NCBI GenBank assembly: GCA_002327525.1
Contig: DCWG01000025.1
Location: 1-37,379 of the forward strand
Direction: 5' to 3'
DNA: 37,379 nucleotides
From: Gammaproteobacteria bacterium UBA2168
GTDB lineage: Bacteria > Pseudomonadota > Gammaproteobacteria > Pseudomonadales > Azotimanducaceae
Of this stretch, positions 1-37,379 are shown in pieces (position 1 is the stretch's first letter; each line of letters starts with the position of its first letter). The position numbers and the translations under genes were made by a program. A model generated the notes under the pieces. It did not search any database. It saw only the letters and a list, made by a program, of their open reading frames with translations, and was not told the origin of the DNA.

Positions 1-1
1 G

Positions 2-286
2 CCCGGCGCGATAGAGGCATTCCTGCGCGTCGCAGATGGAACCCCCTGGAAAGAGGCCGGTATTCCCGGCGTTCCCGCTCGAGTCAGTCAAGACATCCGT
101 GGCTACTACGAGATGGCCGCGATGGAGATCTCCGATCACACACCCGCCGCCTGGTCGGGTTATCGGTGGTTTCGGGACAAAACCGAAACCGGCAAGGTCA
201 TCAGAGCCGCGCAGGCCGCGATCCGGGAATCCGGTGCGCCGGAACCGCTGTGGCGTTTCCTGCTGCCGCTGGACGCCTCGATGTAG
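2..286 (+). CDS. C-terminal part of an unrecognised protein, cut by window edge
   Basis: An open frame enters from the left edge and ends at TAG 284-286, giving 94 residues. No start lies in the window that would make a sensible whole gene. The tail is rich in Trp, Arg and Glu (for example GYYEMAAMEISDHTPAAWSG and WFRDKTETGKV) and looks like a folded cytosolic enzyme: amphipathic, with no membrane segment or low-complexity stretch. I do not recognise the family. It is read as real because it is fully open with protein-like composition and the other frames here are poorer. The following stretch holds only decayed genes, so nothing downstream hints at its role. Confidence 0.55.
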   Translation, partial: PGAIEAFLRVADGTPWKEAGIPGVPARVSQDIRGYYEMAAMEISDHTPAAWSGYRWFRDKTETGKVIRAAQAAIRESGAPEPLWRFLLPLDASM

Positions 287-384
287 GAGCGTGAGTACAC
301 CCCGGTCGCGCCACTCTCGCGACCAAACCATGAATGCCTCGCATCGTGCACGGCGCCGAATGCGGAACGGCCTCCCACGCGATC

Positions 385-752
385 TCAGTCCACCGCCCAA
401 CCCTCACGCCACGGCGCGAAGTGATAGGCCACGAACGCACCGTCGGCGAATCGCCAGTGCCCGCCACCTTGCGATAACGGTCGAAGTAGTGGCCCGCTGC
501 AGTTCGAGGCCCGCCTGAATGTGAAATACGAATCTCCACGGAGCATCGGCCGCTCGCGTGCCGTTCGTCCAGAAGCTCGATCACGTGGTTCTGGATGAAT
601 GGCTGGTGGGTTCGCTCACCCACGCTTTCGCGATGGAACGCGAGTAAAGCCTCATGGCCACTGGTTATGCGCTCGCCCATCCGAAATGAGGCATCCGCGC
701 AAAACAAATCGACTATCGTGGCGGCATCTGCTTCAGGGTCGTTCCCGTGCAC
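385..752 (-). pseudogene. SnoaL/NTF2-like protein, frameshifted and N-terminally short
   Basis: The minus strand encodes a SnoaL-like (NTF2 fold) polypeptide: DPEADAATIVDLFCADASF, then GHEALLAFHR, NHVIELL and GRCSVEIRISH, ending in AGHYFDRYRKV. After that the frame is lost. Shifting by one base near 466-476 restores the typical ending GGHWRFADGAFVAYHFAPW, with a stop at 385-387. The first available start is GTG at 750-752, and it lacks the usual N-terminal helix of about 20 residues, so the gene is also short at its 5' end. SnoaL-fold proteins include isomerases, hydratases and many of unknown function. No substrate can be assigned. A single-base indel could be an assembly error, but the missing N-terminus could not. 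Confidence 0.7.
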
Positions 753-979
753 AGAAAGGCCAGAAATACCGCCTGACCTACGAACCAGAACACCCTATCG
801 TAGGGATCGGTGGTGGCCTCCTCGCCCTCCGTAGTACGCTCCAGTGAGCGCGCGACTTCCCACGTGAATCCAACTTCGGGAGAGCGTAGCTTGAGTATCT
901 TTGTCAAAAGGTCTTTAAACACCTCGGATCCCTTCCCCGTGTCCGGATCCCGCACCGTTTCCGCGCCAGACGGTTTAAT

Positions 980-2296: not shown

Positions 2297-2371
2297 TGGG
2301 CCGCACCCCTTTCTGCATCACGCCTCGCTGGTTTATCCTCACGCCCACCTAACGATTTTCAGGCACTTTTC

Positions 2372-3160: not shown

Positions 3161-3168
3161 ACCGGCCA

Positions 3169-4443: not shown

Positions 4444-4890
4444 TCAGCGTTCGTCGAAATCGATAACCACTGCTTCGCTGATTGGGTGAGATTGGCACGT
4501 CAGGACGAAACCCGCATCGATTTCCTCCGTTTCGAGACCGTGCGTGATGTCCATGTCGAGCGCACCTTTCCTCAGTCTCGCCTTGCAGCTGGAGCACACG
4601 CCACCTTTGCACGAATGCGGCAGATCCAGCCCATGGTTGATGCCTGCATCCAGGAGATTCTCGCCATCGGCGCTCAGTTCGAAACTGCCCGCGCGCGCCC
4701 AGGACAACGGTCATGGTACCCACCTTGCCGCCAAACGCCAGCAATCGGGCCTGATGCGTCTCGACCACCCCGTGCGCGTTCGCCGCGGACGCGCACAACA
4801 ATTCGTAGTGGATGTGCTCCTTATCCACACCGAATTCCCGCAACCCACGGGACACTTCCGAGATCATCGACTCGCGAACGTCTACTTGAC
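4444..4890 (-). pseudogene. PaaE-type ferredoxin:NAD(P)H reductase, truncated and frameshifted
   Basis: The downstream part is a plant-type [2Fe-2S] ferredoxin domain with all four ligands, seen as LPHSCKGGVCSSCKARLRKG and later FVLTCQSHP, ending FDER at 4444. In the neighbouring frame upstream lies the end of the NAD-binding domain (ESMISEVSRGLREFGVDKEH, then IHYELL) and the linker. The two halves join by a one-base shift at about 4696-4706 (GTMTVVL to ARAGSFELSADGE). This order, reductase then ferredoxin, is that of PaaE/phenylacetyl-CoA epoxidase reductase and related oxygenase reductases. The FAD domain and most of the NAD domain, about 230 residues, are missing. The remnant stops at the start of the divergently oriented molybdenum enzyme gene, so the lost part was probably removed by a deletion there. 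Confidence 0.75.
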
Positions 4891-4943
4891 GCGCATTTTC
4901 CCAAACCCATATCTTCGGTGTTACACCACATGCGGATTGACCC

Positions 4944-7160
4944 ATGCCGGAATTTCAGACCCTCGGTAAACGGCCCCTGCGCCCGGATGCCATCGACAAA
5001 GTGCTCGGGCGCGCCGTCTTCGGTGCCGACGTCTCGATGGGACAGATGCTACAGGGTGCCGTTTTACGCAGTCCCCACGCACACGCGCGGATTCTCTCCA
5101 TCGACACGTCGAAAGCGGAACGATTGTCTGGCGTGAAAGCGGTGATCACCTCGGCTGACTTTCCAGCACTACGGCCCCGCGGGCCCGGTGACATCGCACG
5201 GGACAATCTCGCCGTGGACAAGGTCCTCTATCACGGGCATGGCGTCGCCGCCGTCGCGGCGACCGGTATCGGCATCGCGCGCGCCGCACTCGATCTCATC
5301 GACGTCCACTACGAGCCCTTGCCTCACGTACTCAGCATCGACGACGCCATGGCCGAGGGCGGCGTAGTGCTACACCCGGATCTCACCCATGAAGGTCACG
5401 AGGGTCCGAGCAACGTCTATGAGCGCGTGGAACAATCTATCGGTGATGTGGAGAAGGGTTTCGAGGATGCTGACGTCATCGTGGAGCGAACATACAGCAC
5501 GCCAACCGTGCACCAGGGTTACATAGAACCACCGGCGTGCGCCGCCAGTTTTCAGCCGCACGGGCAGTCGACCATCTGGACCACGACGCAGGGGCATTTC
5601 ACCATACGCGATTCCGTGGCCCTGATGTGCGGCCTGCAAACCGCCGAGCTGCGAGTGGTACCCACCGAGATTGGCGGTGGCTTTGGTGGCAAGACCACTC
5701 CGTACCTGGAAGCAATGGCGCTTACCCTGTCGAAGAACAGTGGCCGTCCGGTGAAGATGCGCATGACGCGCGAAGAGGTGTTTCGCTGTGCAGGTCCCGG
5801 TGCGGCGAGCAAGTCCAGAGTCCGCATCGGCGCCAGAACCGATGGGACCATTACGGCGATGGACGCGGATCTTGTGTACGCGGGAGGCGCCTTTCCCGGG
5901 GCCCCGCTCGGTGGCGGCATGGGCTGTATCTTCTCTTCTTACGACGTGCCCAACGTCCGTATTCTGGGACGCAGCGTGGTGGTGAACAAACCCATGGTAC
6001 GGGCTTACCGGGGTCCGGGCGCACCCCAGGCCTGTTTTGCATCGGAGAGCCTCCTGAACGAACTTGCCACGCGCCTCGGAATGGATGCTCTGGCGTTGAG
6101 AGAGAAAAACGCGCTGCGCGACGGGGGCAGCAATATTGCCGGTTCGTTCCGAGAGCTGGGGCTGCTCGCCTGTCTGGAGGCAGCGCAAGACTCTAGCCAC
6201 TACCGAACCCCGCTGGAACCCGGCCGGGGCCGCTCTGTGGCTGTTTCGTTCTGGCGCAACGCCGGGGGTCTCTCCAGCGCTACCGTAGTGTTGCACCGTA
6301 ATGGATTCGCGTCGGTACTCACGGGTTCTGCCGATTTGTCGGGTACGCGCGCGTCGCTGGCAATGATCGCGGCCGAAACCCTGGGTTTACCAATCGAAAA
6401 CGTACACGCCGAGGTCGCAGACACCGAAAGTGTAGGCTTCACTGGCGTGAGCGGCGGCAGCCGTACGATCAACGCCACCGGACAGGCGGTTGCCAGTGCG
6501 GCTCAGGAAGCAATCTCGCAGATGAAAGAACGCGCCGCCTCTGAGTGGAACGTACGACCCGATCAGGTGGAATGGCGAGAGGGTCGGGCATACAACACCA
6601 CCAGGGATGAGAGTCTGACTCTGAAGGAGATCACGCGCCGCGCACCCCAAACCGGTGGGGTAATCAGCGCAAGTACCTCGATCAATCCACCCGGGGGTGA
6701 GGGACCCTGCTTCGCGGTTCACATCTGCGACGTCGACGTGGATCGTGAGACTGGCAAGACTGCGATCGCGCGCTACACAACTGTGCAGGACGCTGGTATG
6801 GCCGTACACCCCGCCTATGTCGAGGGGCAGTTTCAGGGCGGAGCCGTGCAGGGAATAGGCTGGGCGCTGAATGAGGAATACGTCTACGACAGCGATGGCG
6901 TGTTGCAAAATCCCGGCTTCCTCGACTACCGCATGCCAGTTGCCTCGGATCTCCCCATGATCGACACGATCATCGTGGAGGTTCCGAACTCCCGCCACCC
7001 GTTCGGCGTGCGCGGCGTGGGCGAGGCTCCCATCATCCCACCCTTGGCGGCTGTCGCCTCGGCCATCGGCAACGCCGTCGGTGTTCCGATGTGCGATCTG
7101 CCATGCACCCCGGAGAGAGTGCTGGCCAGTATCGAGGCAATTGTCGAAAAGGCGCCATGA
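4944..7160 (+). CDS. Xanthine dehydrogenase-family molybdopterin-binding large subunit
   Basis: A 738-residue molybdenum hydroxylase large subunit (CoxL/aldehyde oxidase superfamily), which hydroxylates aldehydes, N-heterocycles or acyl-CoA aromatics at a Mo-MCD centre. The N-terminal aldehyde oxidase a/b hammerhead region contains RSPHAHARILSIDTSKAE. The cofactor loop is GGGFGGK (244-250). The active-site loop is AYRGPGAP (354-361), unlike the AYRCSFR of true CO dehydrogenase, so this is a form II-like enzyme and CO oxidation is unlikely. The catalytic base is Glu694 in GVGEAPIIPP. The usual [2Fe-2S] and FAD subunits are not encoded beside it. Upstream is a ferredoxin-reductase remnant, downstream a PEP-utilising enzyme. 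The start ATG 4944 leads directly into GKRPLRPDAIDKVLG, the normal N-terminus. Confidence 0.9.
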   Translation: MPEFQTLGKRPLRPDAIDKVLGRAVFGADVSMGQMLQGAVLRSPHAHARILSIDTSKAERLSGVKAVITSADFPALRPRGPGDIARDNLAVDKVLYHGHGVAAVAATGIGIARAALDLIDVHYEPLPHVLSIDDAMAEGGVVLHPDLTHEGHEGPSNVYERVEQSIGDVEKGFEDADVIVERTYSTPTVHQGYIEPPACAASFQPHGQSTIWTTTQGHFTIRDSVALMCGLQTAELRVVPTEIGGGFGGKTTPYLEAMALTLSKNSGRPVKMRMTREEVFRCAGPGAASKSRVRIGARTDGTITAMDADLVYAGGAFPGAPLGGGMGCIFSSYDVPNVRILGRSVVVNKPMVRAYRGPGAPQACFASESLLNELATRLGMDALALREKNALRDGGSNIAGSFRELGLLACLEAAQDSSHYRTPLEPGRGRSVAVSFWRNAGGLSSATVVLHRNGFASVLTGSADLSGTRASLAMIAAETLGLPIENVHAEVADTESVGFTGVSGGSRTINATGQAVASAAQEAISQMKERAASEWNVRPDQVEWREGRAYNTTRDESLTLKEITRRAPQTGGVISASTSINPPGGEGPCFAVHICDVDVDRETGKTAIARYTTVQDAGMAVHPAYVEGQFQGGAVQGIGWALNEEYVYDSDGVLQNPGFLDYRMPVASDLPMIDTIIVEVPNSRHPFGVRGVGEAPIIPPLAAVASAIGNAVGVPMCDLPCTPERVLASIEAIVEKAP

Positions 7161-7252: not shown

Positions 7253-9883
7253 ATGAACGAATCCTTACCCTTCATTTTTTCGCTGGCAAGTTCCGAGCTG
7301 AGCCTCGATGCCGTCGGCGGCAAGAGCCGCACGCTGTCCCACCTTGCCGCGGCCGGTTTACCGGTCCCTTCAGGACTTCTGATCTCAACCCGCGCTTACC
7401 GCGATTTCGTGGCGGTTAACGACCTGCAAGCGCGCATCCTGGAACTGAGCCACCATGCGCGCGACAGTGCCAAGGCTGCGCACACAGCGTCTTGCACCAT
7501 CCGCGACCTGTTCGAGACCGCCGCCCTGCCCAATGAAATCGAGGCCGCCATCGGACATGCCGCCGCACCCTTCGGCTGCGCACCACTTGCGGTTCGCTCG
7601 TCCGCCAACGCGGAAGACCTGCCGGATCTCTCCTTCGCCGGCCTGCAGGATTCATTTCTCAACGTCCGCGGGGAGAGCGCGCTGCTCCTTGCAGTGCGGC
7701 ACTGTTGGGCGTCATTGTGGTCCGAACGTGCCATCGTCTACCGCGATCGAATGGGCATTGCTCAGGAAACCGTGGCGATGGGCGTGCTCGTACAGACCAT
7801 GATCGATGCCGATGTATCCGGCATCCTGTTCACGGCCAACCCGACCACCGGTGCACGCAATGAGATCGTGGTCAACGCAAGCTTCGGTCTCGGTGAAGCT
7901 ATTGTCGGCGGAGAGGTCACCCCCGATACCTACCTCCTCGATCGCGATTCCCTGACCCCCGTGCAGGTGATCACGGGCGCCAAGACCACCATGATCGTCC
8001 CAGACGGCTCACGCGGTACGCGCAGCCAGGCCGTACCTGAATCAAGCCGTTCGCAGAACGCGCTCAACGGCGAACAACTTCGAGACCTCGCAAGCCTCGG
8101 GCTTCGAGCTGAATCCGAGTGTGGCGGTACGCCGCAGGATATCGAATGGGCCATCGATGGCGAACAATACTGGTTGCTGCAATCGCGGCCGATCACCGGA
8201 CTGCCCGCGGAGCAACCGGATGCAACCTGGTCATCGCCCTACGGAAACGCCAAGCTGGTTCGGCGCCAGGTGGTCGAGAACATGCCCGAACCCCTTTCCC
8301 CTCTTTTCGAAGCACTGTACTTGAACGAAGGACTCGATCGCGGGATAGACCTGTTGGTGGAGGAGATGGGGTTACCGCTCAACATCGACGAGTTCATCAC
8401 CCGGCCCCTGTTCGTCACCATCAACGGCTTCGGCTACTGCCGGTACGACTTTCACATCACCAGGCGCACTCTCGCCATGATTCCGCGCATCCTGTACTAC
8501 TACGTTCGCAGCCTACCCCCGCTCATCGGTAATCTCGTCCCGATGTGGCGGGAGTCAGGACTGCCCGACTACCAGCAAACCATCGCCCGTCACCGGTTGC
8601 TGGATCACAAAGCAGCCTCCGACGATGCGCTGCTCGGGGCGGTTACAGAATTGGCGATGGCGGATGCCCGCTATTGGTTCTACATCAGTATGATGGTCGG
8701 TGTTGCGAAGATCACCGAAGGACTACTCCACCGCTTCGTCACTTCACGTGCGGTGAGGGGAACTCTCACCAGTGCCATGTTCCTTCGCGGTTTTCCGTCG
8801 CAGACCCTCGAAGCCCAGCGCAGCCTCACCGCTATCGCATCCAACCTGTCGACCAACCCAGCCTTACGGGACCTGGCCGATGGCGAACCCGTCGAGGAGA
8901 TGGTAGAGCGCCTGCGGCAACACCCCGATGGACAGCGGATCGCGGCCGATATCACCAATCACCTTAAAAGCTATGGCCACCAGGTGTACAACCTCGACTT
9001 CGTAGTACCCACGCAGGCCGAAAACCCCGCTCCGGTACTGCTTGGCTTGTGGGCACTGTTGAGCGATGAAGATCCTCTCGGCACCTGGCGGGAGCGTCAG
9101 GCGACCCTCGTGCGCGAGCGCGAGACCCTGGAAGCACAGACAACGGCGTCGCTCGGCCCCGTTCGACGCGCCATATTTCAGAAACTCCTGTCCTGGGGGC
9201 AGCGATTCGGGCCCAATCGCGAGGAAGCTCTCTTCTATATGGGGGCGGCCTGGCCCGAGCTTCGCCGCTGCGCTCTCGAACTCGGCGCTCGATTGACGGC
9301 CTCGGGAACTCTGGCCACACCCAGCGACCTGTTCTTCCTGAGACCCGAGGAGATCGAGGAAGCCTGTACGGCCCGCGAAGGCAGCACCGCACGTCCAAAC
9401 CTGCGGGAACTGGCGGCCTCGCGCCGAACCCTGCGCGAAGCGCGAAAGAAACTGCATCCCCCGGCGAGAGTGCCGGAAAATCTGAGATTCAAATTGGGCC
9501 CTCTCGACTTCACGCGCTTTTTCGAGGTATGGGAAACCCAGAAGCTGAATCCCGATGAAGGCGATGTGCTGCGCGGATTCGCCGTCAGTCCAGGCACGGT
9601 AACGGGTATCGCGAGCGTCGTGCTCTCACCGGAAGACTTTACAGACATGCGCCCGAACACGATCCTCGTCTGCCCAACCACCACCCCAGCCTGGACACCG
9701 ATGTTCAACCACGCCCTGGCGCTCGTCACGGACATCGGTGCCATTCTGGCACACGGTTCCATTGTGGCCCGCGAGTTTGGAATCCCGGCGGTGCTCGGCA
9801 CCGGCAACGCGACCGTGCGTATCGCCACGGGTCAGCGCATTACCGTCGATGGGTCGGCCGGCACCGTCACGCTGGTGGATTGA
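7253..9883 (+). CDS. PEP/pyruvate-binding ATP-grasp enzyme, rifampin phosphotransferase-like architecture
   Basis: An 876-residue protein. The N-terminal ATP-grasp (PEP synthase ATP-binding) domain, about residues 10-315, shows GGKSRTLSHLAAAGLPVPSG, LAVRSSANAEDLPDLSFAG and DIEWAIDGEQYWLLQSRP. The C-terminal swivelling phosphohistidine domain, about 780-876, shows ILAHGSIVAREFGIPAVLG with the phospho-acceptor His834. The large C-terminal PEP-binding barrel of true PEP synthase is absent, and the middle 450 residues have no obvious motif. ATP-grasp, substrate domain, then His domain is the order of rifampin phosphotransferases (about 865 residues), which move the beta-phosphate of ATP to a small molecule. 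The natural acceptor here is unknown. It lies 92 bp after the molybdenum enzyme gene, so co-transcription is possible. No strong ribosome site precedes ATG 7253. Confidence 0.85.
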   Translation: MNESLPFIFSLASSELSLDAVGGKSRTLSHLAAAGLPVPSGLLISTRAYRDFVAVNDLQARILELSHHARDSAKAAHTASCTIRDLFETAALPNEIEAAIGHAAAPFGCAPLAVRSSANAEDLPDLSFAGLQDSFLNVRGESALLLAVRHCWASLWSERAIVYRDRMGIAQETVAMGVLVQTMIDADVSGILFTANPTTGARNEIVVNASFGLGEAIVGGEVTPDTYLLDRDSLTPVQVITGAKTTMIVPDGSRGTRSQAVPESSRSQNALNGEQLRDLASLGLRAESECGGTPQDIEWAIDGEQYWLLQSRPITGLPAEQPDATWSSPYGNAKLVRRQVVENMPEPLSPLFEALYLNEGLDRGIDLLVEEMGLPLNIDEFITRPLFVTINGFGYCRYDFHITRRTLAMIPRILYYYVRSLPPLIGNLVPMWRESGLPDYQQTIARHRLLDHKAASDDALLGAVTELAMADARYWFYISMMVGVAKITEGLLHRFVTSRAVRGTLTSAMFLRGFPSQTLEAQRSLTAIASNLSTNPALRDLADGEPVEEMVERLRQHPDGQRIAADITNHLKSYGHQVYNLDFVVPTQAENPAPVLLGLWALLSDEDPLGTWRERQATLVRERETLEAQTTASLGPVRRAIFQKLLSWGQRFGPNREEALFYMGAAWPELRRCALELGARLTASGTLATPSDLFFLRPEEIEEACTAREGSTARPNLRELAASRRTLREARKKLHPPARVPENLRFKLGPLDFTRFFEVWETQKLNPDEGDVLRGFAVSPGTVTGIASVVLSPEDFTDMRPNTILVCPTTTPAWTPMFNHALALVTDIGAILAHGSIVAREFGIPAVLGTGNATVRIATGQRITVDGSAGTVTLVD

Positions 9884-12416: not shown

Positions 12417-12420
12417 TGCG

Positions 12421-13423
12421 ATGCTGGCTCCGATACGGACACTGCTACCCGAAATCGCCGCGCGCGCCGAAGAAGTGGAAGACGAGCGGCGGATCTGATC
12501 GCCAAACTGACCAAAGCCGGTGGGTTCCGTGCGATGGTGCCGCGCGAACTCGGAGGCGCTCAGAGCGATTACCCGATCAGCGTGCAAATGCTCATCGAAT
12601 TGGCGCGGGCTGACAGATCCGTCGGCTGCGAATCCCCGCAACTGCCGGCGCTTGTGCCGGGTCGAGCTTCCTTGAGCTCTATGCAGGCGGACCCGACGTC
12701 ATCGTCAGCGACGCATTCGTCCCGAAGGGCAGCGCCGGGAGCGTAGACGCAGGTTACCGCGTCTCGAAACGCTGTGGATTCGCCAGCGGCTGCCAGCATG
12801 TCGACTGGCTGTTCGGAAACTGCGTGGTGGACGACGGTGCTGTCGGATTAGGCTGCATGATGCTGCCAGGGAGACAGTGGGCCATTCACGACACCTGGTA
12901 CTCCGCGGGACTGCGAGGTACCGCCAGTCACGACATCGAGCTCGAGGGCGCCTTCGTCCCCGAACAACATACATTCGATTTGTTCAGCGGCACTCCCTGC
13001 ATGAGCGGACCGCTGTTCGCCGCCCCCCTTGTCCAGTTCGCGTTACACATTGCGGCGCTCGCCCTCGGCAGCGCTGAAGGCGCGTCGGACGAACTCACCG
13101 AATTTGCCTGCACGGACGAGACGCGCCTGTATCGACGCACGCCAATGCAGGACAGCGAACTGTTGCAGTAGCCTATCGGGCACGCTCAGGCAGACTATCA
13201 GAGGCATGCGGTACAAACGAAAGCATGGGTAGCGGAGGCGTGCGCCTGCGTAGTCGATGCCTGCTACACCGCCGCGGGTGGTAGTGCGCTGTATCACGGC
13301 TCTCCGCTCCAGCGTCGACTACGAGACATCCACACCCTGACCCAGCACGCTTCCGCGCAGGAGGGCGCGTTCGCAAACTCGGGTGCAGGCCCGCTGGGTC
13401 ATCCAGCGACATTCGGTCTCTAG
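12421..13423 (+). pseudogene. Acyl-CoA dehydrogenase/flavin hydroxylase-like gene with multiple lesions
   Basis: Three reading-frame pieces line up as one acyl-CoA dehydrogenase-family protein (the HpaB/DszC-like branch with the Acyl-CoA_dh_2 C-terminal domain). Piece 1, ATG 12421, reads MLAPIRTLLPEIAARAEEVE. Piece 2, about 12495-12640, reads FRAMVPRELGGAQSDYPISV. Piece 3, from about 12670, reads GPDVIVSDAFVPKGSAG, DTWYSAGLRGTASHDIE and so on. Piece 3 meets TAG at 13169-13171, after which the same frame continues as IGHAQADYQRHAVQTKAWVA to a normal end at TAG 13421-13423. That makes two frameshifts, a damaged stretch at about 12630-12680, and a nonsense codon. Intact relatives are about 370-400 residues. 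The gene directly follows the cytochrome-PQQ gene and was probably in its operon. Confidence 0.85.
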
Positions 13424-18842: not shown

Positions 18843-18860
18843 GACATCACGCCACGAGAG

Positions 18861-25000: not shown

Positions 25001-25433
25001 AAGCCTTCGCTTCCTTGAGTGTGATCGCGTGGCTGAGTCCGTGCAGCACCGGGACACCGCACCGCTGTGCGAGCGAGCGCGCCTGTGCTTTGTCACCGAA
25101 ACGACGCAACGCCGAAGCATCCGGCCCCACGAACTCGAACCCCGCTTTCTCGCAGTCGACGGCAAAGTCGGCGAGCTCGCTCAAGAAACCGTAACCCGGA
25201 TGTATCGCATCGCAATCGGCTTCTTCCGCAAGCGCGATAATCCGTGCGGAGTCGAGATAGGCTGGAACGCCTGTCGCGCCGAGGCCGAGTACCTGGTCGG
25301 CGTGGCGCGTGTGCAATGACTGGCTATCATCGTCCGCATAGACCGCGACGGTTGCAATACCCAGATCCGAGGCGGCGCGGGCGATGCGAATCGCTATCTC
25401 GCCACGATTGGCGATCAGCAGGTTCTTGAGCAT
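22032..25433 (-). CDS. Single-chain acyl-CoA carboxylase (biotin carboxylase + BCCP + carboxyltransferase)
   Basis: A 1133-residue fusion carrying all activities needed to carboxylate an acyl-CoA. Residues 1-450 are biotin carboxylase: MLKNLLIANRGEIAIRIARA, the glycine-rich ATP loop AVAGGGGRGM, RECSLQRQRQKLVEIAPA, and MEANARLQVEHTVTEAV. A biotinyl domain follows with EALKMEHM (biotin Lys552). The rest is a carboxyltransferase with both N and C halves (TEGGGGRTYGGPRSATGP, and LSLIDTPGNMVGPEAEKTA). The order matches the single-polypeptide long-chain acyl-CoA carboxylases described in mycobacteria and Rhodopseudomonas, which use acetyl- to long-chain acyl-CoAs. Substrate choice cannot be read here. 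The start is decided by GGAGGAA seven bases before ATG 25431-25433. An upstream in-frame start at 25466 would overlap that site. Confidence 0.93.
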   Translation of the reverse strand: MLKNLLIANRGEIAIRIARAASDLGIATVAVYADDDSQSLHTRHADQVLGLGATGVPAYLDSARIIALAEEADCDAIHPGYGFLSELADFAVDCEKAGFEFVGPDASALRRFGDKAQARSLAQRCGVPVLHGLSHAITLKEAKAFFETLSPGAGVMLKAVAGGGGRGMRAVERLGDLDEAFARATSEAEQAFGSGEIYIEELLPRARHIEVQIVGDGSGEVCHLWDRECSLQRQRQKLVEIAPAFGLSESLRTAMLDAAGKIAAEVAYRGVGTIEFLLDTRPEANERFVFMEANARLQVEHTVTEAVTGLDLVAIQLRIAGGSTLDDLGLVQANVAPPRGVAVQARVNLETMTGDGQSHPGGGVITAYEPPAGPGVRVDGFGYTGYVTSPHYDSLLAKVIAHADDLDAAVRKARRALAEFKIEGVRSNTGFLSALLRHALLAQASIHTRYVEEHAAELVRANGERARYFEPDLDVVKAGTRVDPDDPLAVLALKGPVTPARGSGKAPVPFAVGPAGTVAVLAPLQGMLIELKVSVGDTVRLRQPVAVLEALKMEHMVLAEHAGVIREIALEVGDTIFEDTPIVFIEPQEIEGEYDSGERIDLDSIRPDVAEVQHFHHLTTDEARAEATAKRHDAGKRTARENIADLCDPGSFFEYSPLVTATRYRNDSLEELEERVIKTAADAMVMGVGRVNGDLVGRENARCVAMSYDYTVLAGTQGGKNHQKQDRMFGVARNYQLPVVLYTEGGGGRTYGGPRSATGPQAGSVGGLSVRTWRELGKLSGLVPLVGVNSGYCFAGNVVLLGACDVIIATRDSSLGIGGPAVIEGGGLGAYAPNEVGPISIQQPNGVIDILVEDEIEATAAAKHYLSFFQGRIQGWSAHDQRVLRHVVPENRRAVYNIRQVIETLGDVGSMLELRPEFGLSMVTAFIRIEGRAVGVIANNSNSPTGGAVDSDGADKASRFMQLCDAFDIPILSLIDTPGNMVGPEAEKTALIRHCGRMYVAGANITVPYFVVVLRKSYGLGALAMSTGSFDETFFSISWPTGEFAGMGLEGAVKLGRRAELLAITDVAERKARYERYVDDAYAWSRALNAATVSEVDDVIDPADTRKWLVMGLDSVPSAPPRSGKKRGWIDTW

Positions 25434-25636: not shown

Positions 25637-26155
25637 ATGAAACAGATGAAACCACTACCTGCCCTGGCCCTGCTCACCACGATGATCCTGTGCAACAGCG
25701 CCTCCGGTACAGCGCTTCTCGAACCGGGCGATGCGTTTCCTGCATTCGACGCCAGGGACCAGCACGATACCGAATATCAATTCCAACCGGGCACGAGGAC
25801 CGTCCTCATCGCCTTCGACATGCAAACCGCCAAAAAGACTAACAAGAAGCTCGCGAACCTCGATGCGGGTTTCCTGGCAGACAATGAGGCCGTGTTCATT
25901 TCCAACATCTACGGCATGCCCCGCGTAGGACGCCTTTTTGCGCTTCCCAAAATGAGGAAATACCCGCATCGCATTGTCCTCGCCGATGCCGAGAATCTCC
26001 TGAGCCTTTTCCCCCGGAAGGCAGATAGAGTCACCATCATCCGGCTGAATGCAAGTGCGGCGGTTCTATCGGTTGATTTCTGGAATCCCGGTGAAGAGGA
26101 GCTGTGGGATTACTTTGATCGTGGTGCGACCGCATCCGCGACATCGCTCGACTAG
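25637..26155 (+). CDS. Small secreted thioredoxin-fold-like protein
   Basis: A 172-residue protein with a Sec signal peptide (KPLPALALLTTMILCNSASG, cleavage near SGTA). The mature part begins with LLEPGDAFPAFDARDQHD, the usual opening of peroxiredoxin/thioredoxin-like domains, followed by RTVLIAFDMQTAKK, where a thioredoxin would have its CxxC; here both cysteines are absent. It then continues AVFISNIYGMPRVGRLFALP and HRIVLADAENLLSLFPRK. Similar proteins occur widely in gammaproteobacteria, often misnamed FAD/FMN-containing dehydrogenases. With no redox cysteines it is unlikely to be an oxidoreductase. ATG 25637 or 25646 may be used; there is no strong ribosome site. It ends with TAG and stands alone, divergent from the carboxylase. 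Confidence 0.75.
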   Translation: MKQMKPLPALALLTTMILCNSASGTALLEPGDAFPAFDARDQHDTEYQFQPGTRTVLIAFDMQTAKKTNKKLANLDAGFLADNEAVFISNIYGMPRVGRLFALPKMRKYPHRIVLADAENLLSLFPRKADRVTIIRLNASAAVLSVDFWNPGEEELWDYFDRGATASATSLD

Positions 26156-26215: not shown

Positions 26216-26677
26216 TCACTGAGCAAAACTGGAACGCATTTTGATAGCCCACTTGCCGCTCTCCCGGGTCAGGATATAGAGCGAATCGTGGCAGTTGATG
26301 ACGGAACCATCTTCCCGATATCGGGTGAAACGTGTATTCACATGCACCTTGTCCTCCGATCGCATCGAGATTTCCCGTTTGTCCCACTCGCTGTGGTGCC
26401 ACCCGATTCCCTTCAGAAAGCTCTCCAGATCTTCTCGCTTCAGATCATCAGCACTTTGCAACACGTGCATCCGCCCACTGGCCAACCGGTAGTGAGGAAA
26501 GTGATACGTGCTGGTATGGGTCTTGATATCCAAGGCATTGAATGAGGACAGGAATTTGTCAAGCACCGCCATGATCTCATGATCCGTGGAGTTGTCTGAT
26601 CGACTCCAGGCGTTGTTGGCCATCAGCACGTGAGCCAGGATCAAACTCAACGCCCACAATAGATACGACTTTCTCAT
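26216..26677 (-). CDS. Secreted SnoaL/NTF2-like protein
   Basis: A 153-residue protein with a signal peptide (RKSYLLWALSLILAHVLMA, then NNAWS). The mature part fits an NTF2-like fold: EIMAVLDKFLSSFNALDIKT at the start, HFPHYRLASGRMHVLQSADD, HVNTRFTRYREDGSVI, and a C-terminal LYILTRESGKWAIKMRSSF. NTF2-like proteins in the periplasm are mostly uncharacterised. The gene is complete, with AAGGGA six bases before ATG 26675-26677, and is a useful contrast to the broken SnoaL gene at the left end. It runs towards the thioredoxin-like gene, 60 bp away. No partner gene suggests a substrate. Confidence 0.75.
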   Translation of the reverse strand: MRKSYLLWALSLILAHVLMANNAWSRSDNSTDHEIMAVLDKFLSSFNALDIKTHTSTYHFPHYRLASGRMHVLQSADDLKREDLESFLKGIGWHHSEWDKREISMRSEDKVHVNTRFTRYREDGSVINCHDSLYILTRESGKWAIKMRSSFAQ

Positions 26678-26810: not shown

Positions 26811-27249
26811 TCAATCCCAGAGGCCGCCGCGGGTGGGCTTCTCCTCCACGATCTCGACGTTCAGCCCGTCCGGGCCGTAGAAGTACATGTAGTGCACGCC
26901 TCCCAGCGGCGTGAACGGCGTGTGAACCTCGATGCCCGCGGCTTTGTGCCATTCAAATTCACTGGCACCGTCCTACCCCTGCCCAGCCGATATGCCATAA
27001 CGTGGAGCCAATCGACGATGGAGCACGCTCAGCCACTGTCTCTAGCAGGATGAACGACCGCTCTGTAAACAGCGCGGGAACCTTACCCCTGTAAATGACC
27101 TTGACGGCACCGAAATACTTCTCGTAGTACCCGATGAACTCTTCAGATTTGACGACATTCAGATGAACAGGACGCAAATGGGCCGTTTGCGCCAGGACCG
27201 ATACAACGCACAGCGAAAGTGTAGGGTAACCGATACAGCGATATCTCAT
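26811..27249 (-). pseudogene. Secreted VOC (glyoxalase-fold) protein with one frameshift
   Basis: ATG 27247-27249 starts a signal-like segment (MRYRCIGYPTLSLCVVSVLA) followed by a VOC domain: LRPVHLNVVKSEEFIGYYEK, FGAVKVIYRGKVPALF and LWHIGWAG. At about 26970-26976 one extra G shifts the frame and stops it at once. In the next frame the domain continues perfectly: DGASEFEWHKAAGIEVHTPF, GGVHYMYFYGPDGLNVEIVE, ending GGLWD at TGA 26811-26813. The metal-ligand His and Glu positions are all present across the break. The lesion is one base only, so this may be a sequencing error or a very recent mutation. Function of such periplasmic VOC proteins is unknown. Confidence 0.75.
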
Positions 27250-27304
27250 GCCACTGGTTTCTCGACGCGCGGGCATCAAACATAGCTTACGCATTGAGCC
27301 GCGG

Positions 27305-29053: not shown

Positions 29054-29209
29054 CGCGATCTCTTCTTTTTTTTGCGAGCGTTCAGCAGAGCCTAGCATCA
29101 TCGCTCTGATGCCGGAAACGATCGTCTCGAATGTGCGCATGTCGAGCCGCTGAACATTTTACTTCCCGAGAAACCCGTGGATCATGCTGAACACGAGACA
29201 ATAAGGAGC

Positions 29210-29386
29210 ATGCACGAAATACCCCATGTGCAGATCAACGAAGCGCGGCTTTGGTATGCGGTACGCGGGCATGGCGAATTGCTGCTGCACCACGGCTACA
29301 CCGCCTCCAGAGCAAACCGGATGCCGGTCGCGCAACGCCTGGAGGCACGCTGCCACGGAGATCGAGACACAATTCTCCAGCGATAG
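29210..29386 (+). pseudogene. Alpha/beta hydrolase, N-terminal remnant
   Basis: ATG 29210 is preceded by AAGGAG almost without a gap. It begins MHEIPHVQINEARLWYAVRG and HGELLLHHGYTASRANRMPV, the opening of an alpha/beta-hydrolase fold with the oxyanion HHG segment. Likeness ends after about 50 residues, at a stop 29384-29386. The nucleophile elbow (G-x-S-x-G), acid and His regions are absent. It must be the stub of a gene of about 270 residues. Confidence 0.6.
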
Positions 29387-29601: not shown

Positions 29602-29847
29602 ATGACACGCAAAGCCATCGCGTTGATAGCAATGACATTCACGCTCAGCGCATGCTGGAACGCTGAGAACGTCCATGTGCGACTCGAAGATGTGTCACTG
29701 GGATAGCAGTTGCTGAATCTCAAAGCCGCCTACGCGGGAGATGCAATCACGCAGGACGAGTATGAGGCGACCAGGCGCACATTGCTTTCGTTGAACGATC
29801 TGTGCAAGAACACGGAATCCGAGGTCACCTGGTTCTGGGATCGCTAA
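29602..29847 (+). pseudogene. Small lipoprotein with SHOCT-like tail, split by in-frame TAG
   Basis: The ribosome site AGGA lies eight bases before ATG 29602. The product starts as a lipoprotein, MTRKAIALIAMTFTLSACW, with lipobox LSAC, then NVHVRLEDVSLG. Codon 35 is TAG (29704-29706). The same frame continues without other damage for 46 codons, QLLNLKAAYAGDAITQDEYE and ATRRTLLSLNDLC, and ends at TAA. The second half resembles the short C-terminal (SHOCT-like) helix found at the end of many small membrane proteins. A glutamine, CAG, would be the natural residue at the stop, one C-to-T change away. The gene is either newly broken or makes a 34-residue precursor. Confidence 0.6.
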
Positions 29848-30405
29848 CCGAATCGTTCAAGGCCTCGAGATCGCGGTGCGCGAAACCTTTTTTGCTCTTC
29901 GTGAGAATGCCTTCCAAGCCCCTGTAGATTGTAAGTTCGTCTAACCTGCCGGCGTGCCATCGCAGCCACCAGCCGTCGCACGGGTCGGGGCGCGATATCA
30001 AAAAAACCTTCGACGGCGTGCTCGAATCAATCTTCGTCGAGCCATCGGCTCGCCACCATGATCCAGTACAGAAGGTCTTCCGCGAGCCGCGCCAACGCCA
30101 CGCCCTGTGCTCGTTGGTGAGCATCGAGCCCCTGCTACACCCGGCCTTGCGCAAATTCGTCGAGATACTCCGTAATCAGTTCCGAATCCGCCAGGCGTTC
30201 GCCGTCGATCTCCAGAAACGGCAGCTTGCCCTAGGGTGCTTTACAGGGATCGCCTTCATGCTCCAGTTCGAAAGGTACCTCAAGGACCGTCATCAGCATT
30301 TCCGTCTTGAGACAGAACGGGCTCGGATTCCGCATTCCGAAAGCGAGGGGGCGGCATCACCAGTTTCAGCACAGTGTGGTTCCCTGTTTGCTCGATCGGC
30401 ACCAT
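29844..30405 (-). pseudogene. Glutathione S-transferase-like (Fax/Tom37-type), three nonsense codons
   Basis: ATG 30403-30405 starts PIEQTGNHTVLKLVMPPPRF. A one-base shift follows, then a single frame gives GMRNPSPFCLKTEMLMTVLE, PFELEHEGDPCKAP, stop, GKLPFLEIDGERLADSELIT, stop, then AQGVALARLAEDLLYWIMVA and stop, FEH and so on. The NPSPFC and GKLPFLEIDGE-x-LADS patterns mark the thioredoxin-like N-domain of Fax/metaxin-type glutathione transferases. The nonsense codons on the minus strand are TAG 30231-30233 (normally Lys), TAG 30135-30137 and TGA 30027-30029 (normally Trp). The last helices are also out of frame and about 70 C-terminal residues are lost. This gene is certainly dead. Its 3' end overlaps the end of the lipoprotein gene by four bases. 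Confidence 0.85.
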
Positions 30406-32036: not shown

Positions 32037-33113
32037 TCAATCGCCGAGGCGTACGCGCATGCGCCCCGCACCGAACTGGCCGGGTGCTGCTTCGAAATGA
32101 CCCGGTACGATTTGACCGCACGATTGACAACCACCGCGAGGATTCAGGTGCCAGCGGCCGAGCACATACCAGTCCCGTTCTATCAGCAATTCACCGCAGT
32201 TTGGGCACCAGGTGCTCGAACCCGCGCTGTCATGCACATTGCCTGTGTAGGCGTACTTCACACCGTTACGCATGGCGATGCGACGCGCGCGGGTTAGCGT
32301 CTCGCTCGGCGTACTGCGTTTGTCGCGCATCTTCCAGTCTGGATGAAACGCGGTGAAGTGCATGGGCACACCCGGACCCAGATGCTCAACCACCCACGCC
32401 GTCATCTCTTCCAGTTCAGCCTCGGAATCGTTTTCACCCGGAATCAGCAGCGTGGTGGTCTCAAGCCAGGTTTCTGTCTCGTGTCTGATGTATTGGAGAG
32501 TTTCCAGCACCGGCGCAAGATGCCCGCCGCAGACCCTGTGGTAGAAACGCTCGGTAAATGCCTTCAGATCTACGTTGGCCGCATCCATCGCCTGAAAGAA
32601 CTCGGCGCGAGGTTCCGGGTCGACGTATCCCGCGGTCACCGCCACGCTCTTCACACCCTCCTCGTGACAAGCCCCCGCCACATCGACGGCGTACTCCATG
32701 AAGATGACCGGATCGTTATAGGTGAAGGCGATACTGCGGCACGCGAGTTCCACCGCCGCCCGGGCGAGTCGTTCCGGCATCGCTCGGTCCGCAAGCGTAT
32801 CCATCTCCCGTGATTTACTCACGTCCCAGTTCTGACAGAACTTACATGCCAGATTACACCCCGCGGTGCCGAAAGACAGCACGCTGCTGCCGGGGTAGAA
32901 ATGACTGAGCGGCTTCTTCTCGATTGGATCGACACAGAAACCGCTGGAACGCCCGTAACTAACGAGCTTGACCTCATCGTCCAGACGCTGGCGCACATAA
33001 CACAGCCCGCGTTGCTCCTCACGCAGCCTGCAGCGCCGCGGACACACATCACACTGCACCCGTCCGTCATCGCGTCGGTGCCAGTGTCGGGTGCTGACGA
33101 CAGTGTCTTCCAT
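32037..33113 (-). CDS. amrS: AmmeMemoRadiSam system radical SAM enzyme
   Basis: A 358-residue radical SAM protein with the pattern of the AmmeMemoRadiSam system (PflA-like). The iron-sulfur motif is GCNLACKFCQNW with Cys86, Cys90 and Cys93. The N-terminal cysteine cluster CDVCPRRC (Cys21, 24, 28) with Cys38, and a C-terminal pair of CxxC motifs (WCPNCGELL and GGCQSCG), suggest a bound zinc or an extra cluster. Central motifs are IAFTYNDPVIFMEYAVDVA and NVDLKAFTERFYHRVCGG. The reaction is unknown in the literature I know. Start: ATG 33111-33113 is next to the Memo gene's divergent start, with AGAAGG one base upstream; a TTG at 33182 is also in frame but would add an unlikely 23 residues. Divergent from the other two system genes, which supports a shared role. 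Confidence 0.92.
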   Translation of the reverse strand: MEDTVVSTRHWHRRDDGRVQCDVCPRRCRLREEQRGLCYVRQRLDDEVKLVSYGRSSGFCVDPIEKKPLSHFYPGSSVLSFGTAGCNLACKFCQNWDVSKSREMDTLADRAMPERLARAAVELACRSIAFTYNDPVIFMEYAVDVAGACHEEGVKSVAVTAGYVDPEPRAEFFQAMDAANVDLKAFTERFYHRVCGGHLAPVLETLQYIRHETETWLETTTLLIPGENDSEAELEEMTAWVVEHLGPGVPMHFTAFHPDWKMRDKRSTPSETLTRARRIAMRNGVKYAYTGNVHDSAGSSTWCPNCGELLIERDWYVLGRWHLNPRGGCQSCGQIVPGHFEAAPGQFGAGRMRVRLGD

Positions 33114-33244
33114 ACCTTCTATATGGTGGCAGACACCCAGAATGGCAAGGTGTCCTGGATAAAAGCACCGGAATACTTGCAATAAGCGGCGGACAGCCCC
33201 ATATAGCGGGTGTCACCAACTTCCCACACTCAGGGGAGGTACCC

Positions 33245-34042
33245 ATGCTGACACGTCAAACAGCGGTTGCCGGCTTTTTTTACCCGGAGGATCCGACGAC
33301 GCTGTCCGATACCGTGGCCAGCTTCCTGGAGCAGGCGCGTACTTCCAGAGCTGCCTTCCCGGCGGACAGCTTTCCCAAGGCGATCATCGCCCCGCATGCG
33401 GGATATCCATACTCCGGGCCCATCGCGGCAACTGTGTACGGATTGCTTCAGGGCGCCCGCGCGCGCATAAGACGCGTCGTATTGCTAGGTCCCGCACACC
33501 GGGTGTACCTGCGCGCAATGGCATTTCCTTCCGTCGATGCATTCGCCTCACCACTGGCAAACGTACCACTCGACAAAGCGTCTATCGCACGCGCGCTCGA
33601 GCTTGAATATGCACAGGTCTCGGACGAGGCTCACGCCGAGGAGCATTGCCTGGAGGTGCAACTGCCGTTCCTGCAAACCGTCTTGGACGAGTTTGCGCTG
33701 GTGCCCTTCGTGGTCGGCGACTGTCCACCCAGCGCGGTAGCCGCCGTTCTGGAATCGCTGTGGGGAGGCGAGGGGACTCTGATCGTCGTGAGTTCGGATC
33801 TGTCGCACTATTTGCCTTACGATCAGGCGCAAGACACAGACCGCGTCACCAGTCAGGCCATCGAGGCACGCAGCTCTCGACTCCTCGGCGACGAGGCCTG
33901 CGGCGCTCACGCCATCAACGGACTGATGCTGGTCGCAGAAAGGTACGGGCTCGAAGTACGCACCCTGGATGTGCGCAACTCGGGCGATACGGCGGGAGAC
34001 CGCAGTAGTGTCGTGGGATATGGCGCTTATGCACTCTCCTGA
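33245..34042 (+). CDS. amrB: AmmeMemoRadiSam system protein B (MEMO1-like)
   Basis: A 265-residue MEMO1/Memo-family protein, related in fold to non-heme iron dioxygenases. It has IIAPHAGYPYSGPIAATVYG (His51), VVLLGPAHRVYL (His85), EEHCLEVQLPFLQTVLDEF and VVSSDLSHYLPYDQAQDTD. The last is the region of the third conserved metal-site position in eukaryotic Memo. Eukaryotic MEMO1 binds iron, so a metal-dependent role is plausible. ATG 33245 is preceded by AGGGGAGG four bases upstream, one of the strongest ribosome sites here. The next gene, AMMECR1-like, overlaps its end, so they are translated as a coupled pair. The radical SAM gene runs the other way, 131 bp upstream. Confidence 0.93.
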   Translation: MLTRQTAVAGFFYPEDPTTLSDTVASFLEQARTSRAAFPADSFPKAIIAPHAGYPYSGPIAATVYGLLQGARARIRRVVLLGPAHRVYLRAMAFPSVDAFASPLANVPLDKASIARALELEYAQVSDEAHAEEHCLEVQLPFLQTVLDEFALVPFVVGDCPPSAVAAVLESLWGGEGTLIVVSSDLSHYLPYDQAQDTDRVTSQAIEARSSRLLGDEACGAHAINGLMLVAERYGLEVRTLDVRNSGDTAGDRSSVVGYGAYALS

Positions 34043-34604
34043 GTACGAATCGCGCGAGCGCACCATTCTGCTCACCATCGCCCGCCGCTCCATCGAACAC
34101 GGTATTCGTGAGGGAATTCCCCTCCTACCTGAAAGCGACACACTGCCCGACTCGCTGACACGAATCCGGGCGTCTTTCGTCACGCTGCGCAAGGCAGACG
34201 ACCTTCGCGGCTGCATCGGAACGCTGAACGCTCATCGCCCTCTCGCGGAAGACGTGGCCGGCTCCGCTTTTTCCAGTGCTTTTCGCGATCCCAGATTTCC
34301 TCCACTGCGGGAGCGGGAATTTGCCGGTTTGAGCATCGAAGTTTCCGTTCTCTCTCCGATGCAGCCCCTGTTCGTTACCAGCGAAGCGGAACTTCTGCAC
34401 GCATTGCGGCCCGGCATCGACGGACTCGTGATCGAAGAAGGCAGCCACAGCGCTACTTTTCTACCGACAGTATGGGAGAGCCTTCCCAAACCGCGGGCCT
34501 TCGTGAACGAACTCAGGCGCAAGGCAGGGCTGCCCGAGGACTATTGGTCCGCGAATCTGGCGCTGCATACATATCACACAGAAACCTTCGCAGGTCCTGC
34601 CTGA
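34020..34604 (+). CDS. amrA: AmmeMemoRadiSam system protein A (AMMECR1 domain)
   Basis: A 194-residue AMMECR1-domain protein. The family motif LRGCIGTL lies at 62-69, followed by FRDPRFPPLREREF and GLSIEVSVLSPMQPLF, IDGLVIEEGSHSATFLPTVW and the C-terminal AGLPEDYWSANLALHTYHTE. The molecular role is unknown. The start overlaps the Memo gene: ATG 34020 or ATG 34029, before the Memo stop at 34040-34042. The frame is open upstream to 33969 but that part lies inside Memo and is not family-like. Overlap implies translational coupling. With the radical SAM and Memo genes it makes the full system in three genes over 2.6 kb. Confidence 0.93.
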   Translation: MALMHSPEYESRERTILLTIARRSIEHGIREGIPLLPESDTLPDSLTRIRASFVTLRKADDLRGCIGTLNAHRPLAEDVAGSAFSSAFRDPRFPPLREREFAGLSIEVSVLSPMQPLFVTSEAELLHALRPGIDGLVIEEGSHSATFLPTVWESLPKPRAFVNELRRKAGLPEDYWSANLALHTYHTETFAGPA

Positions 34605-34702
34605 GAGGATACGGCGGCCATGGGTTGAGGCACACAATGCTCGCTATGATGACCTTCCAAATACAGGTTGTAAGGGCTTTGTCTTGGTTATAGGCAATTA
34701 CA

Positions 34703-34960
34703 TTGACTTGTACCCGGAGCCGCATCGACGCCATCGAAGATGTGTCCGAAGATCTGTTCGACGAATGGCGTTCCGAAACGGAACAGATCACCAACGCCAG
34801 ATCGCGTACCTCGAGCACGCGCCAGCTACAGGCATCGGAACGCAAGTACGCGGCACTGATTAAAGCCATGCGCCGCGCCGAGGCCAGCATGGACCCCGTG
34901 CTCACATCGTTTCGCGACCATGTCCTGGCCCTTAAGCACAATCTGAACGCCCAGGCCCAC
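34703..34960 (+). pseudogene. DUF2959 protein, internal remnant
   Basis: The frame reads RIDAIEDVSEDLFDEWRSET, RTSSTRQLQASERKYAALIK and AMRRAEASMDPVLTSFRDHV, LALKHNLNAQA. This is the helical, coiled-coil middle of DUF2959 proteins, which are about 210 residues, predicted to be exported, and of unknown function. The N-terminal signal and first helices, about 80 residues, and the last helices are missing. After about 34960 the open frame continues with no likeness to any family (HCSERPRASDN). ATG 34703 falls right before the domain without a ribosome site and so is probably chance. Confidence 0.6.
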
Positions 34961-35126
34961 TGTAGCGAAAGGCCGAGGGCTTCTGACAACATCCAGACTT
35001 CACTCATTCACTCGCTTGTTGCCCGGGACATACTTCCGCCGAGCGGCTTCGTGAGAGAAATGTTGATAAAATGGGCGTCGGGCAGGAATCGGGAGACCGA
35101 GCGCTCGTACGCTCGCAACATTCACT

Positions 35127-37379
35127 ATGTGCAGAATCAACTCACAAACACTCGTGAGGAGTTTGGTTTTGACAGCGTTCCTCGCACTTTCGAGCCATTC
35201 CGCCGCTGCCATCTTTTCATCCACGCTGCCCGCCAGCCGAAGCGTTCACACGGGTAGTCTCGCTACGCTTTTCGCGACGGTGGTCTCCTCCTCCGACAGC
35301 ACACTCACCAACTGCTCTGTCTCCGTCGCCACATCACTGGACGCCACTTTTTCGTATCAGACAACTGACCCGGCGACCAATCAGCCGGTCGGCCAACGCG
35401 ACACGCCGGTGGACATCCCTCCGGGTGGGTCACAGAGTTTCGTGTTGGGACTCACCGCCAACTCAGAGACTCCAACCACGCAGGTAGAATTCGCCTTCCA
35501 CTGTGACAACGATGGCCCCGCTCCAGTTGTTCCCGGGCTCAATACGCTGCTGTTCTCCGCAAGTACGCTCCCCGCCCCGGACATAATAGCGCTCGCCGCC
35601 ACTGTCGGCGGCAACGGCGTGTCCGAGGCTCCGAAGGATGATGGGTTCGGCTTTTTCACCATTGCCACGATCAACCTCGGTGCCGCCGCGACAGTGGACG
35701 TCGAGGCGGTGGTTGCGGACAACAGCGATCTGCTGTCCACTATCCTCCTGTGCGAAACGGATGCGAGCGGCGCCTGTATCAGCGGTCCACACCCGTCTCC
35801 CATCACCGTCACCGTCCCGCGCAACGCCACACCCACCTTTGCCGTGTTCTTCAACAGCGCGACAAAGGTCTCTTTCGATCCCGCGCGTAACCGATTGTTT
35901 CTGAACTTCAGAGAAGGTGCCGCCATTCGCGGTTCGACCAGCGTGGCTTTTCGAGGCGGTGGAGAATCGATACGTTTCGAGAACGCTGGACACCCCACGT
36001 TCATGAGCCCGCATGCCCGGCCAATTACCGTCAGCGGCGGGTTGGTCTACGCAGCCAACACACCGGCAGACACGGTAGACGTCATCGACACGGCAACGCG
36101 CGCTATCGTCAGGCGCATCAACGTCGGCATCGACCCGGTGGGCCTCGCCGTGCGTCCGGACGGCAGGGAGATCTGGGTAGCCAACCACGTCTCGGACACT
36201 GTGAGCGTGATCGACACCGACGCCACGAGTCCGACGTTTCACGAAGTAATTGCCACAGTACAGGCAATCGACGACACAACGTTCTCCACCCGTTTCGACG
36301 AGCCCGTGGGCGTTGCTTTTGCCAACACACACAAAGCCTACGTGGCGCTCTCTCCCGGCAACGAGATCGCGGTGGTCGACACCGACACCTACACTGTGAC
36401 CGACCGCCTGCCGGTACAAGCGCAGGATCCACGGGCAATCGTCGTGCGCGATGGTCGTCTGTACGTCGTTGCGTTCGAGTCGAACAACCAGACCCAGCTT
36501 TCCGGATGCACCCCGGAGAAAATCGACGGCGACACCTGCACCTTCGATGCGGTCGAGCACGTGTTCACCAACAACAACGTACTCTCGACGCACTACAACG
36601 CGGACATCGTTAAAAACAACGCGATTCCGGACCGGGATCTGTTCGTCTTCGATACCACGAACGACCAGCTGATCGACACCGTGGAAGGTGTCGGTACGCT
36701 TCTGTACGGCCTCGACGTGGACAGCAACGGCCGGGTGTTCATCTCCCAGAGCGATGCCCGCAACGATGCGAACGGCAAAGCCGGCACGCGCAAACACGGC
36801 CTCGCGGAAATGGAAAATCGCGCGTTTCTCAATCAGATAACACGTATCGATTGCGATACCGGCTGCGGGCAACACGCCTTCTTCGATCTGGAGCCGAGAC
36901 CGCCGGCGCATCCGGCCCCTGGCATGGCACTAGCTACGCCATTTGCGATCCGCGTAAGCGAAGACGACAGCATGCTCATCGTCACTGCCGCCAGCTCCAA
37001 CAAGCTGTTCACCCTCGACCCCGGTACCGGTACCGTGCTCGACCGCATTGAGGTCGGAGCCATTCCTCGTGGTATCGCCCTGCAATCGGCACCGGATGGC
37101 GCCCCCCTCAGCGCCTGGGTGCTCAATGTCGGCGACAACAGCGTAACTCTGGTCGACCTCTCAGCACCACCGGAACTGAGTGTTACAGCCACGATCACCC
37201 TGGACGATCCAACCCCCTCGGATGTCAAGCAGGGACGCCTCGCGTTCAATGACGCCAACGCCTCGACCACCAGCACCTTTTCCTGCGAAAGCTGCCACCC
37301 CGACGGGCATACGGACCAGCTCACCTGGGTACTAGACACCCCCATCTGCGACGTGGCGGGTTGCACCCAGATACCGCCG
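35127..37379 (+). CDS. Secreted YncE-like beta-propeller protein with CxxCH heme motif, incomplete at the window end
   Basis: One frame is open from ATG 35127 to the window edge, 751 codons without a stop. It starts with a signal peptide (RSLVLTAFLALSSHSAAA, cleavage near residue 28). Residues 30-230 are beta-rich, with an Ig- or adhesin-like character (VEAVVADNSDLLSTILLCET). Then come propeller blades of the YVTN/YncE type: GIDPVGLAVRPDGREIWVAN, SDTVSVIDTDATS, and GNEIAVVDTDTYTVTDRLPV. Near the edge is a c-type heme motif CESCH (720-724), with PDGHTDQLTWVLDTP, as in MauG/di-heme peroxidase-like proteins whose partner domain would lie beyond. The product is expected outside the cytoplasm. No ribosome site is clear. 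A long antisense frame over 35463-36911 is its shadow. Confidence 0.8.
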   Translation, partial: MCRINSQTLVRSLVLTAFLALSSHSAAAIFSSTLPASRSVHTGSLATLFATVVSSSDSTLTNCSVSVATSLDATFSYQTTDPATNQPVGQRDTPVDIPPGGSQSFVLGLTANSETPTTQVEFAFHCDNDGPAPVVPGLNTLLFSASTLPAPDIIALAATVGGNGVSEAPKDDGFGFFTIATINLGAAATVDVEAVVADNSDLLSTILLCETDASGACISGPHPSPITVTVPRNATPTFAVFFNSATKVSFDPARNRLFLNFREGAAIRGSTSVAFRGGGESIRFENAGHPTFMSPHARPITVSGGLVYAANTPADTVDVIDTATRAIVRRINVGIDPVGLAVRPDGREIWVANHVSDTVSVIDTDATSPTFHEVIATVQAIDDTTFSTRFDEPVGVAFANTHKAYVALSPGNEIAVVDTDTYTVTDRLPVQAQDPRAIVVRDGRLYVVAFESNNQTQLSGCTPEKIDGDTCTFDAVEHVFTNNNVLSTHYNADIVKNNAIPDRDLFVFDTTNDQLIDTVEGVGTLLYGLDVDSNGRVFISQSDARNDANGKAGTRKHGLAEMENRAFLNQITRIDCDTGCGQHAFFDLEPRPPAHPAPGMALATPFAIRVSEDDSMLIVTAASSNKLFTLDPGTGTVLDRIEVGAIPRGIALQSAPDGAPLSAWVLNVGDNSVTLVDLSAPPELSVTATITLDDPTPSDVKQGRLAFNDANASTTSTFSCESCHPDGHTDQLTWVLDTPICDVAGCTQIPP

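Follow-up and report, generated by a model that had tools for sequence, protein, structure and literature searches.

What leaves about a third of the recognizable genes of one contig in pieces, and is the rest of the genome in the same state? The contig, of 37,379 nucleotides, comes from Gammaproteobacteria bacterium UBA2168 (Azotimanducaceae; DCWG01000025.1 of assembly GCA_002327525.1), and we refer to its full length as the window. It makes up contig C81 in full; the draft genome to which it belongs has 3,736,422 bases in 165 contigs and was estimated by a tool to be 91.4% complete and 4.8% contaminated. An earlier note, made from the letters of the window alone, had listed thirteen gene remnants and proposed a lineage in early genome reduction, for example a recent symbiont. 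Our reading, to which we assign a probability of about 85%, is that this is a genome in decay through ordinary mutation. Genes presumably released from selection would acquire nonsense and frameshift changes, and deletions beginning or finishing inside such genes would then erode them, leaving stubs among genes that are still selected. Gene decay of this type is a known phenomenon. Literature searches, made without the name of the lineage, turned up no paper on it. Here, a draft genome has apparently been caught in the midst of gene loss, with stubs young enough for lost functions to be named: phytanoyl-CoA dioxygenase (PhyH), a PaaE-like reductase, an HsaA-like monooxygenase, a glutathione S-transferase (GST), and a DUF2959 protein.

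Part of the evidence for this reading comes from beyond the window. We sampled 40 further stretches of the genome, which together with the window amount to 714 kb (19% of the genome), and used 60 stretches from twelve genomes of the same family as controls. One of these genomes (G004), represented by a single 20-kb stretch, was included in the count of frameshifts and stops and was too small for the coding-density, short-call, and length-ratio counts. As references, we used 826 proteins, each with a homologue in another genome at a mutual coverage of 80%. References originating from the target genome were left out when frameshifted or stopped places were scored, places at stretch ends were set aside (15 own, 13 control), and alignments that extended beyond a start codon were not counted as breaks. 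With disrupted and intact homologues counted in this way, 17 of 197 conserved places were frameshifted or stopped in this genome versus 2 of 267 in the controls (Fisher p 2e-5). Sixteen of the 17 lie among the 182 places outside the window. The excess is found in the evenly spaced contigs alone (8/68, p 6e-5) as well as in the less random contigs alone (8/114, p 0.001). Genes shorter than 65% of their homologue are also more frequent, at 25/244 versus 14/388 in eleven same-family genomes (p 0.001), and interior gene calls under 120 amino acids make up 18.5% of 650, compared with 3.2–15.7% in eleven genomes. Among matches to the acyl-CoA dehydrogenase N-domain, two of 75 contain in-frame stops versus none of 28 in G022, a 5.1-Mb genome considered below. 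The strict genome-wide rate is about 9–10% of conserved genes. This is an undercount, as the strict criteria detect only three of the window's remnants. The proportion of a third given in the earlier note therefore stands as a rate for the window by gene count, based on reading (13% by bases), and is well above the strict rate for the genome. The window itself is average for its genome, because its share of bases outside genes of at least 160 amino acids (0.227) is near the mean of 0.217 over 34 other stretches of at least 12 kb from the same genome.

Within the window, ten of the thirteen remnants match a family or a homologue and are broken, although breakage is less sure in one of the ten. 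With a possible hydrolase and a lipoprotein they occupy 13.4% of the bases. The spaces between genes were scanned with stops read as X, a scan that took in some but not every frame of both strands. Five remnants lack one or both ends. The first PhyH remnant (893–1216, + strand) retains the C-terminal ~82–107 residues of ~285. It was missed by Pfam and had 341 homologues at E ≤ 0.001 in a protein search; tblastn aligned residues 199–280 of 285 at 959–1204 and 175–281 of 286 at 893–1204, with 73–79% identity in the best rows. The second (18426–18857, − strand) retains the C-terminal 128 of about 272 residues, matches Pfam just under the cut-off (E 5.9e-4), and has homologues of 272–273 amino acids in same-family genomes at 63–66% identity. 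Its broken 5′ end at 18857 abuts the broken 5′ end, at 18873, of an acyl-CoA dehydrogenase remnant on the opposite strand (18873–19298, +). This remnant consists of the C-terminal 111–141 residues, with 49–66% identity; it was missed by Pfam, and the protein search returned 21 homologues. The simplest reading of the junction would be one deletion across a divergent pair at 18857–18873. A short-chain dehydrogenase/reductase (SDR) remnant (14469–14933, −) is reduced to its C-terminal half, with the cofactor-binding N-terminus missing (adh_short 102–191 of 195, E 5e-17; 66% to comparison locus L077 over 140 residues). The DUF2959 remnant (34715–34972, +) preserves only the middle part of the family (74–159 of 190, E 3e-31). 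In another metagenome-assembled genome (MAG), two overlapping matches (L147 and L148; G023:C92:4222-4679) divide DUF2959 between them, and the gene is perhaps broken there as well.

Other remnants are interrupted by frameshifts and stops. One is a flavin monooxygenase of the acyl-CoA dehydrogenase fold (12417–13410, +) with at least one frameshift and one in-frame stop: its PF02771 (N) and PF08028 (C) domains lie in different frames, and the tblastn alignment spans two frames and a stop. The nearest NCBIfam model is NF045629 (HsaA, steroid-ring monooxygenase; E 4.9e-28, far below cut-off). The gene resembles HsaA-type monooxygenases more closely than acyl-CoA dehydrogenases, which hints at a former steroid or aromatic ring pathway. 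A VOC-family remnant (26814–27260, −) is frameshifted at about 26976. Its homologue P0143, which matches Glyoxalase, aligns over residues 1–46 in one frame (61%) and 45–87 in another (63%). The PaaE-like ferredoxin reductase (4444–4945, −) retains its ferredoxin domain (Fer2, E 2e-14) and lacks the N-terminal part; by eye, the part before the ferredoxin domain lies in another frame. It aligns to TIGR02160 (PaaE) over 276–352 of 352, far below cut-off. For this gene and the HsaA-like one, such scores are expected because both are fragments. The GST remnant (29895–30344, −) has three in-frame stops and has lost its C-terminal third (GST_N_4, E 2e-21; NF049950 positions 10–165 of 238).

The remaining cases are less secure. 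In the SnoaL-like remnant (414–752, −), the family is clear, with nearly the whole domain present in an open 183-residue frame (SnoaL_4 23–125 of 126, E 4.9e-10). Its breakage, where the start of the domain appears to be missing and the end to continue into an unrelated frame, is less sure than in any of the other nine. Beside it, a coding-like stretch at 713–955 (−), called as an 80-residue frame and without a match in Pfam or the comparison loci, may be another remnant. The other three of the thirteen fared less well. A small lipoprotein with a SHOCT-like end (29602–29830, +) has one in-frame stop and a weak match (E 1.7e-4, 21.7 bits, below the cut-off of 27). A possible N-terminal stub of an alpha/beta hydrolase (29190–29330, +) was recognized by eye, without a match in Pfam or NCBIfam. 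The VOC remnant near 19377 likewise rests on reading by eye; it had no Pfam match and a single 17-residue alignment at E 0.15.

The note's observation of several kinds of lesion holds, and the lesions are of mixed ages. Nonsense codons occur in the GST (three), the lipoprotein, and the HsaA-like gene; frameshifts in the HsaA-like gene and the VOC gene at 26814, and by eye in the reductase; and missing ends in both PhyH copies, the SDR, the second acyl-CoA dehydrogenase, and DUF2959. More than one lesion per gene, or the loss of half the gene, is seen in several remnants. The process is probably continuing, because a PhyH stub still 73–79% identical to its homologues is found together with a GST that has accumulated three stops. 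Pooled G+C is 0.595 in the remnants versus 0.606 in the intact genes, a negligible drift.

Could these frameshifts and stops be errors of consensus or assembly? The genome is a draft in 165 contigs, 91% complete with 4.8% contamination, and the consensus sequence alone is available. However, several of the lesions are losses of at least half a gene rather than single indels, the GST has three in-frame stops, and genes of about 2.2, 2.4, 2.6, and 3.4 kb, the longest in the window, are intact. The same-family genomes, several of them equally fragmented, gave only 2/267. In addition, the interrupted VOC frame of 111 amino acids (P0142) has three database member sequences on six contigs, none of which exceeds 5,252 bases; these are apparently other contigs, perhaps from the same sample. 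We consider this explanation very unlikely. A mutator through loss of MutL was also rejected, as the MutL_C domain is complete in an open frame of 656 amino acids; MutS was not searched.

Several results weigh against continuing decay, and two of them, the fragments in some controls and the ordinary coding density, would suit a different explanation in which the window only displays a normal level of gene turnover. Some controls contain many fragments: G002 is equally rich in them (6/46, 13%), and G008 has 8%. Short gene calls are nearly as frequent in G005 (15.7%). Coding density, by which the note had suggested that decay might be recognized, is not low. At 0.867 it lies inside the family's range of 0.765–0.926, a value in which the gene caller counts many remnants as genes. 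Neither it nor the raw tiling of open reading frames separated the genome from its relatives, and homologue-based counts were used instead. Adding truncations to the strict count leaves a modest excess (40/197 versus 27/267), and the window alone gives 1/15, which is not significant (p 0.15). Individual families can also look sound. No aldehyde dehydrogenase is broken among five matches (the one partial copy sits at a contig end and was for that reason ruled out as a remnant), and enoyl-CoA hydratases are nearly all full length among those listed from 171 matches in three genomes. The supposed ancestral pair of PhyH and acyl-CoA dehydrogenase is absent from six loci with PhyH relatives, and the lesions are read from the assembled contig with no reads behind them. 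Against ordinary turnover stand the strict counts of 17/197 versus 2/267, which make it improbable. Decay by ordinary mutation remains our preferred reading, and early gene loss is supported. The automatic caller listed many stubs as small genes, and ordinary annotation may do likewise.

If the genome is decaying, what drives the decay when mobile elements seemingly do not? The case raised here makes that question worth asking. The symbiont part of the earlier proposal would make this a recently host-restricted bacterium in early genome reduction, which is a cause of decay rather than an alternative to it. The pattern fits, and there is a precedent in “Ca. Thermopylae lasonolidus”, a sponge symbiont described as being in early genome reduction, with about 16% pseudogenes and, in two assemblies, 6 and 15 transposases and 3 ankyrins (PMC9600693). 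The likeness is a large genome with many truncated genes and few transposases and ankyrins; unlike the present genome, that symbiont is of another lineage, has a known host, and has a coding density of about 72% without pseudogenes (PMC9600693). Here, however, no Ank_2 match was found in the genome (ankyrins are not required of all symbionts), and the only match to an rve-type transposase, the one transposase family searched in an assembly type that hides repeats, is partial and contains a stop. A single 169-bp pair is the only repeat of at least 150 bp in the 714 kb, with the proviso that assemblies can hide repeats, and 75 acyl-CoA dehydrogenase N-domain matches are retained. Repeats and ankyrins, examined as an explanation of the decay, explain nothing. 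What stands of the proposal is the continuing gene decay, in excess of that in same-family genomes; symbiosis as its cause is a tentative suggestion.

Kinship suggested by one gene has also been considered. The closest full-length relatives of the fused biotin carboxylase/carboxyltransferase (22032–25433, −) are in four Gammaproteobacteria MAGs (81–82% identity), the names of which suggest sponge samples; a fifth, partial locus has 84%. Identity to same-family genomes is about 50–55%, so the gene does not fix the kinship of the organism and may have been horizontally transferred. Nor is the match to G022, the source of carboxylase locus L027, proof of kinship, because that genome has 98 PhyH matches versus 7 in the genome studied here. 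For the symbiont proposal, the sponge-related names of the matching MAGs count as a point in favour.

A second and equally tentative candidate cause is that selection has relaxed in a hostless population that is small, isolated, or short of energy. No signs of a mobile-element burst were seen among the elements searched, and a large catabolic repertoire is retained. Pseudogenes are also reported to build up in a hostless bacterium, subseafloor Thalassospira with elevated pseudogene numbers (PMC8406185). That case differs in resting on isolates grown in culture, whose habitat is known and whose substitution ratios were measured, whereas we have the sequence of a draft genome (PMC8406185). Other systems resemble this one in having many mutation-broken genes in a genome that has kept an ordinary size, as in the decay of Sodalis and Shigella. 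These are host-associated and, in Sodalis, mobile elements reportedly proliferated, while one damaged rve-type transposase was found in our genome (PMC7067036, PMC3218036, PMC3091646). We cannot choose between host restriction and hostless relaxed selection. A more specific version, in which drift drives gene loss outside symbiosis and a bacterium of broad metabolism, living without a host and with a genome of full size, sheds catabolic genes through point decay and deletion in the absence of a mobile-element burst, seems unlikely.

The lost functions had been described as mostly redundant, and this is partly so. PhyH has seven matches in the genome, six of them covering the domain, and the 75 acyl-CoA dehydrogenase matches include the window's own remnant. 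Not all losses are redundant, however, because a profile search found no other copy of DUF2959 in the 91%-complete genome, in which the remnant is the sole match.

Beside the remnants, we counted 22 intact genes, close to the some 21 of the earlier note, from a Pfam scan of long frames and two further genes. Counting also a gene end of 286 bases at the left edge, they make up 76.8% of the window's bases. A Pfam family was assigned to 19 of the 20 long frames scanned, the exception being the frame at 25637–26155. The families are enoyl-CoA hydratases, Nramp, molybdopterin oxidoreductase, PEP-utilising enzyme, SDRs, sorbosone-type dehydrogenase, zinc alcohol dehydrogenases, M20 peptidase, DUF5916, carboxylase, methyltransferase, MFS, and a trio of radical SAM, Memo, and AMMECR1. 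The PEP-utilising enzyme of 876 amino acids (7253–9883, +) is among the longest. In the AmmeMemoRadiSam trio (32037–34604), radical SAM is on the − strand and Memo and AMMECR1 are on the +. Also counted as intact were an NTF2-like frame (26216–26659), with a DUF6841 match below cut-off, and a beta-propeller gene that runs off the right end of the window. In a DNA-level comparison of 20 loci, little apart from the carboxylase was shared: two loci had an SDR, two had a PhyH stretch, and one had one further stretch. At L030 (8173–8985), a 270-amino-acid PhyH frame, 66% identical to the 18426 remnant, directly adjoins the carboxylase; in the window, that remnant lies about 3 kb from it. The SDR at 17532–18323 has a relative with 70% DNA identity at L026 (15716–16497) and L027 (15720–16502), about 2.3 kb from the carboxylase.

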